This document shows positions 12,301 through 22,140 of a DNA stretch of 58,714 nt, one piece after another. Within the stretch, counting starts at the first letter, position 1. Each line of letters opens with the position of its first letter. The notes below the pieces were generated by a model. That model did no database searches. It had not been told where the DNA came from and saw only the letters and a program-made list of their open reading frames with translations. Position numbers and translations under genes: made by a program. This DNA comes from a virus, in IMG/VR virus record IMGVR_UViG_3300043399_000459, positions 1-58,714 of that record; one strand, given 5' to 3'.

Positions 12301-12729
12301 ATGCAGGCGTATGAAATGAACAAAGTAGAGTTCGCCTTTGATGGCGAGGAGGACGCATTCCCGGTTATGGATCCGGGCGTCCAGCCGTTCGGCAGCCGCG
12401 TGCTGCTGCAGATACGGCGGGCGAAGACCAAGACGAAGGGCGGCATCTTTCTGGCCGGCGAGACGCGTGACACGGAGATGTGGAACACGCAGGTCGCCAA
12501 GGTCATTGCCATGGGCCCCCTCGCCTTCCACAACCGCAACACCATGGAGCCTTGGCCTGAGGGCGCTTGGGTCCACGTGGGCGACTACGTCCGCGCGCCG
12601 AAATACGGGGGAGACCGCTGGTCTGTCCGTACCGAAGACGGGGAGGAGATCCTCTTCGTCATTTTCAACGACCTCGACTTGCTGGGCAAGATCACTGGCG
12701 ACCCGCTCGCAGTGAAGGCGTTCCTGTAA
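12301..12729 (+). CDS. GroES-like co-chaperonin
   Basis: The 142-residue protein has the GroES beta-barrel pattern: VQPFGSRVLLQIRRAK, a mobile-loop-like KTKGGIFLAGETRD, then VAKVIAMGPLA and WVHVGDYVRAPKYGGD. Phage co-chaperonins such as T4 gp31 replace host GroES to help GroEL fold the capsid protein. Its place just before the scaffold and capsid genes fits that job. AGAAGGAG precedes the ATG. The C-terminal extension beyond a normal GroES (about 97 residues) is unexplained. Confidence 0.82.
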   Translation: MQAYEMNKVEFAFDGEEDAFPVMDPGVQPFGSRVLLQIRRAKTKTKGGIFLAGETRDTEMWNTQVAKVIAMGPLAFHNRNTMEPWPEGAWVHVGDYVRAPKYGGDRWSVRTEDGEEILFVIFNDLDLLGKITGDPLAVKAFL

Positions 12730-14299: not shown

Positions 14300-14848
14300 A
14301 TGGCTTCTATTTCTGCCCCGTTTGGTCTGCGCCCTTCGTACTCGCCAAGCGGTGTGGTTCGCCCCACCGCCTACTCGATTGCCGGGAACTACGCGACCAC
14401 CATCTACCAGAACCAGCCGGTAAAGCTGGTCGACGGTAACCTCGAAGCTGCCGCCGTGAACGACCGCTTTATCGGCACGTTCCAAGGCGTGGAGTGGACT
14501 GACAGCGACGGCCGCCGCCGCGTCAGCAACAAGTGGGTCGCCCAGTCGGGCGCAACCGACATCGTTGCCTACGCGACGCTCGACCCGAGCATTGTCTACG
14601 AGATCCAGTCGAACGCGGCACTCACCGCCGCCGACATTGGCGCTCAGTACGACTTTACCGCCGCCTCTGGCAGCGCCACCGTTGGCATCTCTACCCAGAT
14701 GCTCGACGTGGCCTCTGTTGCTAACAACGCCGCGTTTCGCGTTATTGGTATCACTCCCGGCGCGAACAACGCTTGGGGCGACACCTACGTGATCGTTCAG
14801 GTCCAGATCAGCGAGCATCAGAACGTCGCTGACGTGGTTGATTATTGA
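14300..14848 (+). CDS. Head decoration protein (probable)
   Basis: The 182-residue protein starts MASISAPFGLRPSYSPSGVV, a pattern of small beta-rich capsid decoration or head-fibre proteins encoded directly before the major capsid gene. GAGGAA precedes the ATG. Here the homing endonuclease gene at 14860-15600 has been inserted between it and the capsid gene. No hydrolase motif. Confidence 0.65.
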   Translation: MASISAPFGLRPSYSPSGVVRPTAYSIAGNYATTIYQNQPVKLVDGNLEAAAVNDRFIGTFQGVEWTDSDGRRRVSNKWVAQSGATDIVAYATLDPSIVYEIQSNAALTAADIGAQYDFTAASGSATVGISTQMLDVASVANNAAFRVIGITPGANNAWGDTYVIVQVQISEHQNVADVVDY

Positions 14849-14859
14849 TTTGTAGCCCC

Positions 14860-15600
14860 ATGAGCCACTACGCCTACATTCACGCCCGCCCAGACACCCG
14901 AGATGCTCTCGGCGTGTTCTATGTTGGCAAGGGTGCAGGCAGGCGGTTCCGCCCGAGTATCAGGCGGAACAGGCACCACAGCAATGTGGTTGCCAAGCAC
15001 GGCGCCGAGAACATCTTGGTTGGCGTAATTGAGTGCTCAAGCGAGGACATCGCCCACGCACTTGAGCGCGGCCTTATCAAGTGCCTTCGGCGCTCTGGCG
15101 CTAAACTGGTCAACCTGACCGACGGGGGCGAAGGCTCCTCCGGTTACGTCCCGACGGAAGAAGCCAAAGCCAAGATCGGCGAAGCTTTCCGTCGCAAGTG
15201 GTCCAACCCCGAGTATCGGGCAAAGGTCTCTGAAGCGCAGAAGCTCGCGCAGAAGAACCCCGCTAACTTCACTGAGAAGAAGCGGGCGTCCTCTCTACGC
15301 AATGCGGAAGTGGCGAGAGCAGCTTTGCAGAACCCGGAAGTCCGCGAACAGGCCAGACTTATAAACGCCGAGAAGTCACGGGCCATGTGGTCTGATCCCG
15401 CGTTCAAGGACGCGATGAAGAAGCGGCACGCCGCTTTGTGGGATGTGGATCGCAGAAAGGAAGTGTCCGCAAGAACTCGCGGGCGCGTCCGTATGACTAA
15501 CGGAGTGGAAGAGCGCAATGTGCTGCCCGAGCAAGTAGAAGAACTGCTTGCTATTGGCTGGACTAAGGGGCGCAGATCGTCTCCCAGAAAGGAATTATAA
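14860..15600 (+). CDS. Free-standing GIY-YIG homing endonuclease
   Basis: The 246-residue protein has the GIY-YIG core (YAYIHARP ... FYVGKG, then GAGRRFR and a catalytic-type Glu in HALERGLIKC), LVNLTDGGEG, NUMOD-like helical repeats (TEEAKAKIGEAFRRKW, PEYRAKVSEAQK) and a C-terminal DNA-recognition module (MTNGVEERNVLPEQVEELL ... GWTKGR). ATG 14860 is preferred over TTG 14845, which lies inside the previous stop. The ORF ends one base before the capsid start codon and its last codons supply the capsid ribosome site (AGAAAGGA). It sits next to, not inside, the group I intron at 15640, so it may cut the intronless capsid gene and mobilise both. Confidence 0.88.
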   Translation: MSHYAYIHARPDTRDALGVFYVGKGAGRRFRPSIRRNRHHSNVVAKHGAENILVGVIECSSEDIAHALERGLIKCLRRSGAKLVNLTDGGEGSSGYVPTEEAKAKIGEAFRRKWSNPEYRAKVSEAQKLAQKNPANFTEKKRASSLRNAEVARAALQNPEVREQARLINAEKSRAMWSDPAFKDAMKKRHAALWDVDRRKEVSARTRGRVRMTNGVEERNVLPEQVEELLAIGWTKGRRSSPRKEL

Positions 15601-15601
15601 A

Positions 15602-16777
15602 ATGGCAACGCCAATGCGTTCAACCGATTTCCGCAGCATTAAGTGACAGTGCCCTCATACCGCGAGGTATGTTGAATAACCGCCTCTAATTGACTTGGAA
15701 GCCCGGAAGCGGGCGACAGGGGGCAAGCAAGCGAAAGCTGTGCAGCCTGAACGACTAAGCGAGGTGGCCCTCTGGTAACAGAGGTGATGCGATAGTCTGA
15801 ACCCCGGTATAACCCAAGAAGCCGGGGAGGGAGATCCGAAGAGGTTTCCCCGCCTGCCGCGAGGTAGGTCAGTAAGCGAAAGCTGAAAGTAACAGAAGTG
15901 TGTTGAGCCGATCCTGAACGAAGAGTTCAACGGCATCTATGACCAGCGCGCTGACGAATGGTCGCAGGTCTTCAAGGAGTTCAAGGGCATCCCCCGGAAC
16001 TACCACGAAGAGCCTGTCCTGTTCGGCTTCGGTGCCGCCCCGGAACTTCCGGACGGCATGCCGGTCACCTACCAGTCGGGCGGCACGCTGTTCATCCAGC
16101 GCTACGTCTACCGGGTGTATGGCCTCGCCTTCGCCCTGACCAAGGTGCTGGTGGAAGACGGCGACCACATCCGTATCGGCCAGACCTATGCGCGTCACCT
16201 CGCGCAGTCGCTGGTCGAGACCAAGGAGACCCTCGGCGCCAACATCCTCAATCGTGCGTTCAATGCGACGTACGTTGGTGGTGACGGCAAGGAACTGGTG
16301 GCGACGGATCATCCGATCGCCAATGGCACCTTCTCGAACGAACTGTCCACGGCAGCCAACCTGTCGCAGACCTCACTCGAGCAGCTCCTGATCCAGATCC
16401 GCAACGCTGTGGACAACAACGGCAAGCGCATCCGCCTGACGCCGAAGAAGATCGTCACTGGTCCTTCGAACGTCTTCCAAGCGGAAGTTCTGCTGAAGTC
16501 AGCCCTGCGTGCAGGCACCGCCAACAACGACATCAATCCGGTCCGCTCGATGGGCCTGCTTGATGACGGTCAGGCCAACCTGTCGCGTGTCACCTCGACG
16601 ACTGCATGGTGGATCCAGACCGACGCGCAGGAGGGCCTCAAGCTCGCCATGCGCCGTGGCTTGGAGAAGTCCATGGAGGGCGATTTCGAGACGGATTCAA
16701 TGCGTTATAAAGCCACGGAACGCTATGCGTTCGGCTGGACCGATCCACGCGGCATTTATGGCACAACTGGGCTGTGA
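15602..16777 (+). CDS. Major capsid protein, interrupted by group I intron
   Basis: The coding sequence joins exon 1 (15602-15639) to exon 2 (15901-16777), giving 304 residues. The joint reads MATPMRSTDFRSI / VEPILNEEF. Without splicing, translation stops two codons after the 5' site (AAG TGA). The product resembles HK97-fold, Mu gpT-like major head proteins (LGANILNRAFNATYVGGDG, NPVRSMGLLDDG, WWIQTDAQEGLKLAMRRG, FGWTDPRGIYG). The codon frame is retained because the intron is 261 nt. Exon 2 alone has an open frame from ATG 16058, but that would remove about 65 N-terminal residues of an essential shell protein. The ribosome site comes from the end of the upstream endonuclease gene. A strong terminator follows. 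Confidence 0.88.
15640..15900 (+). ncRNA. Group I self-splicing intron in the capsid gene
   Basis: Predicted 261-nt intron without an ORF. The internal guide ACAGTGC (15646-15652) pairs with both exons: GTGC with the 5' exon end GCAT (with the U-G pair at the cleavage site) and ACA with TGT of the 3' exon. The intron ends in G. Core helices visible: P2 CATACC-GCGA-GGTATG (15656-15671), P3 CCGCCTC/GAGGTGG (15680-15686/15761-15767), P5 GCCCG/CGGGC, P7 GACTA/TAGTC (15753-15757/15793-15797), P8 CCTCTG-GTAA-CAGAGG (15769-15784), P9 CCCCGG/CCGGGG (15802-15827), and a GNRA hairpin at 15853-15868. Several loops are GNRA tetraloops. Confidence 0.9.
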
Positions 16778-16901: not shown

Positions 16902-18452
16902 GTGAAAGCCAGCCTCTCAGAAGTCCTGTCCAAGTTCCACCCCGACATGCTCGCTCGCTACGATTTCAGTCGGGCTGAGTATCACGGCGCACTGGAGCGC
17001 ATGACCGGCATCGTCTGCCCGGATCACGGCGAGTTCACGCAGTACCCCGCGCAGCTACGCAAGAACGGGTCGGGCTGCCCCGCGTGCGGCGATGCGGTGC
17101 GGCGCGCCAAGCGCCGATCTTCGCAGGAGGACGTCATTCAGCAGGCGCACGAGCGGCATGGTGGTTTCTACACCTACGACCGAGCCGTCTACGTCAACAA
17201 CACCACCAAGTTTACCGTTACGTGCCCGCACCACGGCGACTTCAGCATCACGCCCAACGGCCATGTCTCAGGCGGCAAGGGCTGCCCGGTGTGTGGCGCG
17301 CTCAAACGCGGGCACCGCAAGGATGTCACGGGCGCCGCCCGCAAAACGGCCGACGCCAAGATGCTCGCGCATGCCGCCGACTTTGAGCGCGAGGCCCGCA
17401 AGGTGCATGGCGCTGCCTACGACTACAGCGCCGTTGTCTACGCCGGGCGCAAGAAGCCGGTGACTATCCTGTGTCGCGCTCACGGACCCTTTCAGCAGCG
17501 ACCCGAGCACCACCTGAAGCGCGCGCATGGCTGCCCGGAATGTTCGCACCACCGATCCAAGGGCGAGGCCGCGCTGGCCAAGTTCATGGCGATCTTCGGC
17601 CCCGTGGAGGAGCGCAACCGCAAGCTGATCGCGCCGAAGGAACTGGACATCTATGCACCCTACGCCAACGTGGCTGTGGAGTACTGCGGCGAGTACTGGC
17701 ACGCCTCGTCGTCAGCCGATGAGGAGCGCAAGGACCGCACCCGGCACCTCGATAAGCATCGCGCTTGCGAGGCTGCCGGTATCCGCCTGCTGACTGTCTA
17801 CGAGAGCGAGTGGTTGGAGAGGCCCGCTGCCATACGACGCCTGATCCGCAACGCACTGGGCAAGGCGCGTGGCCGCGTCATGGCCCGCAAATGCGCCGTT
17901 GAGGCAGTCGGCAGCGCCGAGGCAACGGCATTCTTCGAGCGCTACCATCCGCAGGGTGGTGCTGGGTGGGGCCAGACATACGGGCTGCGCTACAGCGGCA
18001 AGCTGGTGGCGTGTATGCGCTTCGCCTTTGGGGCAAATGACCGGGGCGCGAATGCCGAGCGCGCGTGGACGCTGACACGCTACGCTACCCGCGTATCGGT
18101 CCCCGGGGGAGCCTCAAGGTTGTTCGCGGCGTTTTTGGCAGACCGCGACCCCGAAAGCGTCAAGTCTTTCTCTGACAACCGCTACTTCACTGGGCGGATG
18201 TACGAGCAATTGGGCTTTGTGCTTGAGGAGGAGACCGATCCCGACTACCAAGTCTACCACCCCAAGACTGGCCTGCTGGCCAAGACGGCGTGGCAGCGCA
18301 AGAACATCCCTGCGCGCATTCGCGACATCGGCGCGTCGGAGGTCTTCAACCCGGCCACGGACCTGCGCAGCGAGCGCGACATGACGTACCTGCTTGGCGC
18401 CCAGCGCATGTTTGATTGCGGCAAGAAGCGATGGGTCTGGCGCAAAGCATGA
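16902..18452 (+). CDS. Free-standing homing endonuclease, zinc-ribbon plus Vsr-like
   Basis: I start at GTG 16902 with AAGGAG 6 bases upstream. The frame is open to 16797 but would run through the terminator. The 516-residue protein has repeated Cys-pair modules (VCPDHGEF ... GCPACG; TCPHHGDF ... GCPVCG; LCRAHGPF ... GCPECS), likely DNA-binding zinc ribbons. A Vsr/PD-(D/E)XK-like nuclease follows (KGEAALAKF, ELDIYAPYANVAVEYCGEYW, KHRACEAAGIRLLTVYESEW), then a C-terminal domain (FFERYHPQGGAGWGQTYGLR) with a GNAT-like look. Such proteins are mobile, site-specific endonucleases of phages. It is inserted between capsid and the next structural gene. Confidence 0.8.
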   Translation: MKASLSEVLSKFHPDMLARYDFSRAEYHGALERMTGIVCPDHGEFTQYPAQLRKNGSGCPACGDAVRRAKRRSSQEDVIQQAHERHGGFYTYDRAVYVNNTTKFTVTCPHHGDFSITPNGHVSGGKGCPVCGALKRGHRKDVTGAARKTADAKMLAHAADFEREARKVHGAAYDYSAVVYAGRKKPVTILCRAHGPFQQRPEHHLKRAHGCPECSHHRSKGEAALAKFMAIFGPVEERNRKLIAPKELDIYAPYANVAVEYCGEYWHASSSADEERKDRTRHLDKHRACEAAGIRLLTVYESEWLERPAAIRRLIRNALGKARGRVMARKCAVEAVGSAEATAFFERYHPQGGAGWGQTYGLRYSGKLVACMRFAFGANDRGANAERAWTLTRYATRVSVPGGASRLFAAFLADRDPESVKSFSDNRYFTGRMYEQLGFVLEEETDPDYQVYHPKTGLLAKTAWQRKNIPARIRDIGASEVFNPATDLRSERDMTYLLGAQRMFDCGKKRWVWRKA

Positions 18453-19929: not shown

Positions 19930-22140
19930 ATGGCTGTTGGCCTTTACAGCGGCGCTTCGGGCCTCGCGCTAGGCAGGGGGCTGTATCGCGACGTCTCTGG
20001 CCTGTGGGCCGGTTCGAGTGGTCTCATCGCGGGTTTTGGCGGCACTGCGTTCTCGCCCCTATCCCTGTTTGCCGCTGGTGAGCCGGGTGCGTGGTATGAC
20101 CCGTCCGACCTGTCCACGATGTTTCAGGACAGCGCAGGCACCACGCCCGTCACGGCGACGGGGCAGACGGTTGGGCTGCTTCTGGATAAGTCCAAGGGCT
20201 TGGTGCTGGGGCCTGAGTTGGTCACGAATGGTGATTTTAGTAACGGCAGCACGGGTTGGACTGCATCTTCTGTTACCGTTTCTGGCGGCGTTGCGTCTTG
20301 GGTGGCATCTTCCGGTACACTAGAGCAGGACATTGTAATAGCAGCCGGTAAAACTTATGCTTTGACATACACTGTTTCGGGATACGTTAGCGGGAACGTC
20401 ACTCCGCGCTTTACAGGGGGAACCCCAGTTATAGGCGTAGGCCGCGCAGCAAATGGCACCTTTACCGAGTATATGCTTGCAGTTGCTGACGCATCTTTGC
20501 GTTTTGTTGGAGGGGTGTTCACCGGCTCCCTCGACAACATCTCCGTCCGCGAACTCCCCGGCAACCACGCCTCCCAGAGCGTTCTGGCAAACAGGCCGAT
20601 CTACGGCATCGAGCCGTTCGGTGGGCGGCGGAACTTGCTGGTTCGGACCGAGGAGTTTCAGAGTTCGGCTTGGGCGAAATTTAGTGCTTCTGTTACAGCA
20701 GACAGCACGACTGCCCCCGACGGGACGTTGACAGCGGATAAAGTCACAGCACTTGGAGATTGGGCCGTATTGCAAACATTCTCTAGCGCCACTGTTGGAC
20801 AAACCTATACGTTTTCCGTATGGATTAAAGTCCCATCTCCACGAACAGTCCAATTGGTGTTGGACGGCGCGTTTATATCTGTTAGCGCCACAGCAGAGTG
20901 GAACAGGTTTTCTATTACAAAGGTTGCGGCAAATACGTCTTTCACAGTGGCGGTCCGAAGGAATACCCCCGGCGCAGAAACGGGATTTGAAACCTTCGTC
21001 TGGGGCGCACAACTCGAAACCGGCTCCACCGCCACGGCCTACCAGCAGGTAACGGACCAGTGGAACGTCACCGAGGCTGGCAAGCCCAGCGTGTCCTATC
21101 TCGCAGGCGACTTCGTTGACGACCGCCTTATTTTCAACGGTTCAACCGCAGTGGCGTGTGAAAGCGCATATGTGACTGAAAACGGGTGGATGGTCAGCGG
21201 CGCATCGGGCAGCAACTATGGCACTCTGTCTCGCATTCCGCTGGGCCGGGTTGCACAGTATGTGGTCAATCCCAATATCAAGATTAATGCTGACCAGCTG
21301 ACCTCATATTTCGGCGTGCCGCAATACTACTTTGTTGGCATGACCACTGACAGCACGGTGTTACACAACATTGTCAGCAGCGCGGGCCCTTATCCGATCA
21401 CCTATGTCGGCTCGAATGGGGTCACATATACGCAGACTGCAAATAACGTCACGACCGACCTTATTGCCCAAGGTCTGACTTCACCGTTTACAATGCTGGT
21501 TCCCAAGGCTGTTATTTCTGACACCGCACTGTCGGTGTTCGATTGCTACAACAACCAGTTAACGGGCAGCATCCCCAGCCTGACCGCTAACACCGCGCTG
21601 ACGGCTTTCCGGTGCTACAACAACCAGCTAACGGGCAGCATCCCCAGCCTGTCGGCTAACACTGCACTGTCGGTGTTCAATTGCTACAACAACCAGTTAA
21701 CGGGCAGCATCCCCAGCCTGTCGGCTAACACTGCACTGTCGGTGTTCCTGTGCTTCGGCAACCAGCTAACGGGCAGCATCCCCAGCCTGACCGCTAACAC
21801 CGCGCTGACGGATTTCCGGTGCTTCGGCAACCAGCTAACGGGCAGCATCCCCAGCCTGTCGGCTAACACTGCACTGTCGGTGTTCTATTGCTACACCAAC
21901 CAGTTAACGGGATGGAGCGGCGGCACTGTTTCCGCCACGCTCGGTGACTTTCAAGCGCAGAACAACTTGCTGACACAAGCCGCTGTGGACGCCATTCTCG
22001 CTGCTTTTGTCGCAGCAGGCAGAACGACTGGTACCCGCAACCTGAACCTCGGCGGCACAGGCAACGCAACACCCTCCGCTACAGGATTGACAGATAAAGC
22101 CACTCTGCAATCGCGCGGATGGACGGTGACAACGAACTAA
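19930..22140 (+). CDS. Large adhesin-like virion protein with leucine-rich repeats
   Basis: The 736-residue protein starts with a Gly-rich segment (LYSGASGLALGRGLY). Two carbohydrate-binding-module-like beta sandwiches follow (ELVTNGDFSNGSTGWTASSV; SAWAKFSASVTADSTTAPDG), each ending in a 'DNISVRE / FVWGAQLETGSTATAY' strand. Near residues 535-672 are six 23-residue leucine-rich repeats with the core NQLTGSIPSL. A short C-terminal cap ends RGWTVTTN. Carbohydrate-binding and LRR modules suggest host-surface recognition or capsid decoration. The LTGSIP core resembles plant-type LRRs, which is unusual in a phage. Confidence 0.7.
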   Translation: MAVGLYSGASGLALGRGLYRDVSGLWAGSSGLIAGFGGTAFSPLSLFAAGEPGAWYDPSDLSTMFQDSAGTTPVTATGQTVGLLLDKSKGLVLGPELVTNGDFSNGSTGWTASSVTVSGGVASWVASSGTLEQDIVIAAGKTYALTYTVSGYVSGNVTPRFTGGTPVIGVGRAANGTFTEYMLAVADASLRFVGGVFTGSLDNISVRELPGNHASQSVLANRPIYGIEPFGGRRNLLVRTEEFQSSAWAKFSASVTADSTTAPDGTLTADKVTALGDWAVLQTFSSATVGQTYTFSVWIKVPSPRTVQLVLDGAFISVSATAEWNRFSITKVAANTSFTVAVRRNTPGAETGFETFVWGAQLETGSTATAYQQVTDQWNVTEAGKPSVSYLAGDFVDDRLIFNGSTAVACESAYVTENGWMVSGASGSNYGTLSRIPLGRVAQYVVNPNIKINADQLTSYFGVPQYYFVGMTTDSTVLHNIVSSAGPYPITYVGSNGVTYTQTANNVTTDLIAQGLTSPFTMLVPKAVISDTALSVFDCYNNQLTGSIPSLTANTALTAFRCYNNQLTGSIPSLSANTALSVFNCYNNQLTGSIPSLSANTALSVFLCFGNQLTGSIPSLTANTALTDFRCFGNQLTGSIPSLSANTALSVFYCYTNQLTGWSGGTVSATLGDFQAQNNLLTQAAVDAILAAFVAAGRTTGTRNLNLGGTGNATPSATGLTDKATLQSRGWTVTTN
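21532..21945 (+). repeat. Six 69-bp leucine-rich repeat units
   Basis: Six tandem 69-bp units, each encoding 23 residues of the form SVFxCYNNQLTGSIPSLxAN plus TAL. Units are nearly identical at DNA level, and differences cluster at the positions between F and N (DCYN, RCYN, NCYN, LCFG, RCFG, YCYT). The last unit diverges after NQLTG. Confidence 0.95.

Follow-up and report, generated by a model that had tools for sequence, protein, structure and literature searches.

A group I intron and a GIY-YIG endonuclease gene at the start of a phage capsid gene: a candidate for collaborative homing

Does a group I intron that lacks an open reading frame move with the help of the endonuclease gene beside it, and how would two such elements have become partners? 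Cyanophage S-PM2, with its psbA intron and the endonuclease F-CphI, is the defining case of collaborative homing (PMC6083498, PMC3984707), and the origin of collaborative homing pairs has been raised as an open question (PMC10448857). The locus examined here poses both questions at once. It lies in a 58.7-kb IMG/VR virus record, referred to below as the window, to which the Caulobacter phages RW, KcrB, RLK and GB2A come closest among the named members of the phage collection. The major capsid gene of this phage is interrupted close to its start, and a gene of the GIY-YIG type stands directly upstream of it, such that the point of endonuclease insertion and the intron site are 39 bp apart. The original prediction had read this arrangement as collaborative homing.

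In this study, we examine the intron, the endonuclease gene and the short stretch of capsid gene between them, and we compare their distribution among relatives of each. The features of the region are collected in Table 1.

Table 1. Features at and around the capsid gene of the window.
Feature	Position	Strand	Remarks
Upstream gene, phrog_37556	14300..14848	+	182 aa, function not assigned; PHROGs match
Free-standing GIY-YIG homing endonuclease gene (predicted)	14860..15600	+	246 aa, ATG start; phrog_314 homing endonuclease, 1.2e-13
AAAGGA, capsid gene Shine-Dalgarno	15588..15593	+	inside the endonuclease reading frame
Exon 1, major capsid gene	15602..15639	+	38 nt; codons 1-12 and two bases of codon 13; foreign-looking
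ORF-less group I intron	15640..15900	+	261 nt; model R1 115.5 bits, E 1.3e-22 (window intron in the model's seed)
P1	15636..15652	+	GCAU.U (15636-15640) with AGUGC (15648-15652); U15639.G wobble at the 5' splice site
P3	15680..15767	+	15680-15686 with 15761-15767; encloses P4, P5 and P6; covariation
P4	15694-15697/15717-15720	+	inside P3
P5	15701-15704/15711-15714	+	inside P3
P7 and P8	15753..15797	+	P7 GACUA 15753-15757 with UAGUC 15793-15797; P8 hairpin 15769-15784
Exon 2, major capsid gene (Phage_capsid_4 / Mu gpT-like)	15901..16777	+	Pfam PF25209 6.6e-10, PF10124 7.3e-08
Second endonuclease-like gene, directly downstream of the capsid gene	16902..18452	+	516 aa, GTG start

The capsid gene and its intron

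Translated without splicing, the frame that begins in exon 1 runs into a stop at codon 15 within the insert. Joined at 15639/15901, the two exons encode MATPMRSTDFRSI followed by VEPILNE..., and in all 83 capsid relatives compared the motif (I/V)VEP spans the position of the junction uninterrupted and without any change in length. Because these 83 relatives are intronless, the comparison places the splice sites without recourse to RNA folding, and it supports the predicted splicing of the intron out of the capsid mRNA. The original prediction had placed a 261-nt group I intron in codon 13, and this holds, in that splicing restores the N-terminus of the intronless relatives. An assembly artefact was considered and is unlikely: a second contig contains the same 12 kb, although it may come from a linked sample, the reading frame continues across the splice, and other phages carry relatives of the intron.

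The insert is almost certainly a group I intron. Exon 1 ends in U15639, which pairs with G in P1, and the intron ends in G15900, both of which are hallmarks of the group; a P10 pairing, UGUU/GACA (15901-15904 with 15645-15648), can be read from the sequence. When 25 diverse introns were aligned, 99.6% of the cells of the core helices P3, P4, P5, P6, P7 and P8 formed pairs, and 14 pairs had changed on both sides, with covariation in P3, P6 and P8 and invariance in P4, P5 and P7. The covariation score was 0.357, as compared to 0.121 in shuffles, none of 500 of which scored as high, and the signal was lost when pairing partners were slid. A 301-nt stretch folded 3.6 SD below its shuffles. T4-type IA introns are known to carry P7.1 and P7.2, for which the window intron has no room between P7 and P3, and it contains no ORF of note.

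Searches of Rfam, both at the gathering cut-off and at E-values up to 10, returned no group I match for the window intron or for its relatives; the Rfam group I model (gpI) has been described as incomplete (PMC11878797). In place of Rfam, a covariance model was built from 25 introns. Relatives of the intron were gathered by three core patterns, which yielded 50 contigs, then 14 hits, then 11. The core pattern gave 0 hits in genome contigs, and hence no bacterial or prophage copy with the exact core.

The endonuclease gene and a foreign-looking tract

The gene upstream of the capsid gene is very probably intact, and its product is, as judged by its alignment and structural model, a putative free-standing homing endonuclease of the I-TevI/Seg type. 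Residues Y6, Y21, R29, E69 and N85 are invariant across 32 sequences and match the catalytic positions of I-TevI, namely the GIY-YIG tyrosines plus the Arg, Glu and Asn of motifs B, D and E (PMC2988022). An AlphaFold model with a mean pLDDT of 85 begins with a beta-beta-alpha-beta-alpha arrangement (E-E-H-E-H) and continues as a row of helices. Foldseek related it to the catalytic domains of UvrC and I-TevI with TM values of 0.51-0.56 by target length and non-significant E-values, and gave no significant match to the whole model. Among solved structures, a profile search matched GIY-YIG chains (1.7e-4) and phmmer with the protein alone found nothing. Pfam at 0.01 likewise returned nothing for this protein, which was identified by PHROGs and by the alignment of relatives; phrog_314 has been linked to GIY-YIG I-TevI-like domains and to NUMOD3 (PMC11878797). 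NUMOD3 scores 13.4 bits in the window protein, under the cut-off of 20.4 that most scanned relatives pass. The likeness to T4 I-TevI and the Seg enzymes, several of which are encoded by free-standing genes and act on neighbouring genes (PMC2988022), is limited to the catalytic domain, whereas the DNA-binding part in the window consists of successive helices in which NUMOD3 is matched once at best, and weakly.

As had been predicted, this reading frame is complete and ends one base before the capsid ATG (15602), and it also supplies the ribosome site of the capsid gene, AAAGGA being the sole Shine-Dalgarno-like motif there. In 76 of the 83 relatives GGAG or GAGG precedes the capsid ATG, and this is gone in the window. 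That loss of the endonuclease gene would harm the phage, as was also proposed, can be kept only as conjecture, as a clean exchange with a relative would restore a normal site. The ATG of the endonuclease gene itself has no clear Shine-Dalgarno before it.

The window was compared with all 83 relatives in chunks of 30 nt. At the 3' end of the upstream gene, over ~60 nt, only 1-2 of 30 nt differ from the nearest relative, and this identity breaks off at about 14834-14848. The endonuclease gene, sampled at its edges, matches none of the 83 (at least 9 mismatches per 30 nt); exon 1 has 3-7 mismatches per 30 nt against the nearest relative; and exon 2, from its second base, has 0-1 per 30 nt over about 110 nt. 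The spacer found in relatives is absent from the window, having been removed by the endonuclease insertion. Exon 1 differs from each of 81 relatives at no fewer than 7 of its 38 nt, yet encodes the family's standard N-terminus. Its end, GCAU, fits the guide sequence of the intron, and most relatives shown have CAAU, CCAU or CGAU instead. In a leave-one-out control, only 1 of 81 relatives was as isolated as exon 1 of the window (about the 2% level), and minimum distances like those of exon 1 were also seen elsewhere, in variable parts of the capsid gene. The divergence of exon 1 is therefore good, but not overwhelming, evidence of a foreign origin.

A foreign-looking tract between near-identical flanks is as expected of co-conversion, and a single recombination event probably replaced the spacer and brought in the endonuclease gene, exon 1 and the intron. 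The joint arrival of these three gains from the finding of one foreign tract and is tempered by its being a single case, by the leave-one-out control, and by a search of viral contigs with the pattern of the 3' part of exon 1, which returned only the same phage and no donor. The import tract is unusually legible; the foreign look of exon 1 and the endonuclease-like gene downstream both go beyond what the original prediction had noticed.

With that downstream gene, endonuclease-like genes stand on both sides of the capsid gene, an arrangement that resembles the HEG-islands (PMC10448857). The downstream protein has DUF723 and CapR zinc-finger domains and matches phrog_559 'HNH endonuclease' at 3.6e-96; phmmer against solved structures gave nothing useful for it. 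Caulobacter phages RW and GB2A and two further loci (L036, L042) carry a gene 60-70% identical to it beside an uninterrupted capsid gene. The head module of the window also includes a GroES-like (Cpn10) gene (12301-12729), annotated too in MW202545.1 and in phage RW. Farther downstream, a long ORF (19930-22140) contains many near-identical 'NQLTGSIPSL(S/T)ANTALS' repeats and probably encodes a tail or fibre protein with leucine-rich-like repeats.

Distribution of the intron and the endonuclease

Both elements are absent from all 83 capsid relatives examined, which include the best 80 of at least 597 in IMG/VR, and within the capsid family they co-occur in the one phage that has either. The intron occurs at this capsid site in only one further contig, from sample 3300047548 (L086/L126), which matches the window with 100% identity across stretches of 10.7 and 12.0 kb; the two therefore represent one independent case.

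Beyond the capsid family, the intron is part of a clade of which 108 introns were mapped at 75 loci (L004, L088-L138, L145-L157, L238-L248), figures that count copies and not independent insertions, as many of the contigs are near-duplicates. Most members are without an ORF, and they reside almost only in capsid genes, which are of unrelated families. P22-like coat genes hold 66 of the 108 introns, in 44 loci and at 11 positions mapped on both sides, which correspond to approximately residues 22, 39, 45, 50, 73, 86, 104, 109, 204, 369 and 389 of the intact MW202520.1 coat protein. Capsid genes of the Phage_capsid_4/phrog_1357 family account for a further 28, SU10-type genes for 2 and a Mu gpT-like gene for 1; the 11 without an assignment include one in a ribonucleotide reductase gene and others in long tape-measure-like genes. 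No description of this clade was found in the open-licence literature.

Several members are of interest in their own right. In Roseobacter phage CRP-118 a clade intron lies outside any capsid gene, between two annotated ribonucleotide reductase fragments (L138, 2991-3104). Up to three clade introns occur in or around a single capsid gene at L098, L131, L145 and L155. Public annotation splits such genes, as in MW202674.1, where a hypothetical protein separates two annotated P22 coat fragments. LAGLIDADG or HNH genes are located inside or beside clade introns at L147, L151, L156 and L157 and at L101, L136 and L135, which suggests that the clade is also able to use endonucleases of its own.

By pairwise identity, the intron most like that of the window is the one at coat residue 39, at 88% over 238 nt, a value that denotes similarity only, since support in the intron core tree is too low to name the sister of the window intron. 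The two share T^TGTTG at the junction (GCCGT^TGTTGG at residue 39, GCAT^TGTTGAG in the window), in genes that are unrelated.

Pairing of intron and endonuclease does not recur among these relatives. Members of the intron clade were found at 0 of the 80 loci of the best GIY-YIG relatives (up to 52% identical), and besides the window's own phage a GIY-YIG gene was found at 1 of the 75 intron loci (L117), about 6 kb from the intron, in a check that covered the loci gathered by the first two core patterns. Relatives with the intron but never the endonuclease had been named in advance as evidence against a partnership, and across the wider clade this is close to what is observed. In a tree of the GIY-YIG proteins, the window protein grouped, with moderate support, with genes that lie directly upstream of head genes. 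Such relatives are directly upstream of uninterrupted P22-like coat genes at six loci (L162, L166, L168, L169, L170 and L176), with a gap of 126-158 nt, and directly upstream of another head-gene candidate at eight. Given these separate neighbourhoods, both elements circulate in P22-like head modules, but apart, and the window may show an intron and an endonuclease that are freshly joined.

Collaborative homing and other explanations

The arrangement is already known from S-PM2 psbA and from the terminase gene of ICP1, and is found here in a new gene. S-PM2 shares with the window an ORF-less group I intron and a free-standing homing endonuclease (PMC6083498, PMC3984707). The difference is that F-CphI is of the Endo VII type and its specificity for the intronless gene, with blocking by the intron, has been demonstrated, whereas the window enzyme is a GIY-YIG protein known from its sequence. 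In the Vibrio phage ICP1, a gene for T5orf172, a GIY-YIG subfamily, lies beside a short N-terminal exon, and the likeness extends to the free-standing state of that gene and to the essential late function of the interrupted one (PMC10448857). ICP1 differs in the gene (terminase), in the enzyme (T5orf172) and in that its splicing was established by RNA-seq and RT-PCR; the window has a capsid gene, a phrog_314 enzyme and predicted splicing. The mycobacteriophage introns of the LittleE capsid gene and the BAKA tail gene are also virion-gene introns, one in a capsid gene and one without an ORF, but the LittleE endonuclease is inside the intron and no free-standing partner has been proposed for BAKA (PMC3706429). 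Clade introns of MW202674.1 and of IMG/VR contigs (L004, L115 and others) are likewise ORF-less and in capsid genes, and are ~78-88% identical to the window intron where aligned; they differ in capsid family (P22-like coat) and in site, and have no adjacent GIY-YIG gene.

Collaborative homing driven by the GIY-YIG enzyme is the best explanation of the locus, and one that we hold with about even confidence. Both elements, with the 38 nt of capsid gene between them, would have entered an ancestor as one recombination tract. The enzyme would recognise the uninterrupted capsid start at a site presumably long enough to overlap both insertion points, and would cut intronless relatives during co-infection, such that repair of the break would copy the endonuclease gene, exon 1 and the intron together. 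Protection of the resident allele would come from the intron, the endonuclease insertion or the two combined, as in collaborative or trans homing. I-TevI has a 38-bp site, cleaves 23/25 nt upstream of the intron site, and co-converts with a bias to exon I because it stays bound on the exon II side (PMC2988022). In the window all foreign sequence is on the exon 1 side, and the distance between the two insertion points is about one I-TevI-like recognition site; by analogy, a similar geometry may apply to the window enzyme. The earlier collaborative-homing reading retains the ORF-less intron, the intact free-standing enzyme and the joint tract, with the proposed cut in the uninterrupted capsid sequence near 15639/15901 as a prediction. 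A lasting partnership is argued against by how seldom the two elements meet at the 80 endonuclease loci and the 75 intron loci. It also counts against collaborative homing that the most similar introns are in P22-like coat genes without an adjacent GIY-YIG gene.

These same distributions bear on the alternatives. The GIY-YIG gene may be an ordinary case of intronless homing, in which it targets the upstream spacer or the capsid start and is protected by its own insertion, the intron being a passenger or a separate arrival. Related GIY-YIG genes do lie beside uninterrupted head genes without an intron, and the insertion itself removes the spacer of relatives; that the two elements occur in the capsid family only together, so close to each other and with a foreign exon 1 between them, leaves this a tentative alternative. 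A related suggestion, which we also consider rather doubtful, is that a capsid-specialised intron clade hops between unrelated capsid genes, mobilised in trans by ad hoc free-standing endonucleases of head modules, with the GIY-YIG gene as a temporary partner drawn from P22-like head modules. It is improbable that the intron moved without the GIY-YIG enzyme altogether, whether through reverse splicing into capsid mRNA, then reverse transcription and recombination, or with the aid of other endonucleases of the clade, and that the adjacency is due to chance. Consistent with it, expression of capsid mRNA is high, ORF-less relatives are found at no fewer than 11 P22-like coat positions and in several capsid families, mostly with no adjacent endonuclease seen, and the most similar intron has the same start of the 3' exon, T^TGTTG, in an unrelated gene. 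However, such movement leaves the foreign exon 1 and the missing spacer of the same tract unexplained, and the LAGLIDADG or HNH genes of some clade members indicate that DNA homing probably operates in the clade.

Mobilisation of the intron by the downstream DUF723/CapR gene is very unlikely. In its favour are its position beside the same capsid gene and its membership of families annotated as endonucleases, and endonuclease genes that bracket essential genes have been described (PMC10448857). Its counterparts in RW, GB2A, L036 and L042, however, are beside intronless capsid genes, so that the window intron is not needed for protection, with the caveat that the junction sites of RW/GB2A, L036 and L042 differ from that of the window by 9-11 of 40 nt. 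The foreign tract, moreover, is on the opposite side of the intron.

Collaborative homing at this capsid gene would be an apparently young case, with the import visible as a single tract that takes in spacer, endonuclease gene, exon and intron. A single enzyme and a synthetic capsid fragment lacking the intron would suffice here to test how collaborative homing pairs arise. The wider clade has a consequence for phage annotation as well: because the standard RNA library misses these capsid-centred introns, many environmental phages probably have capsid genes that annotation presents as broken or truncated.
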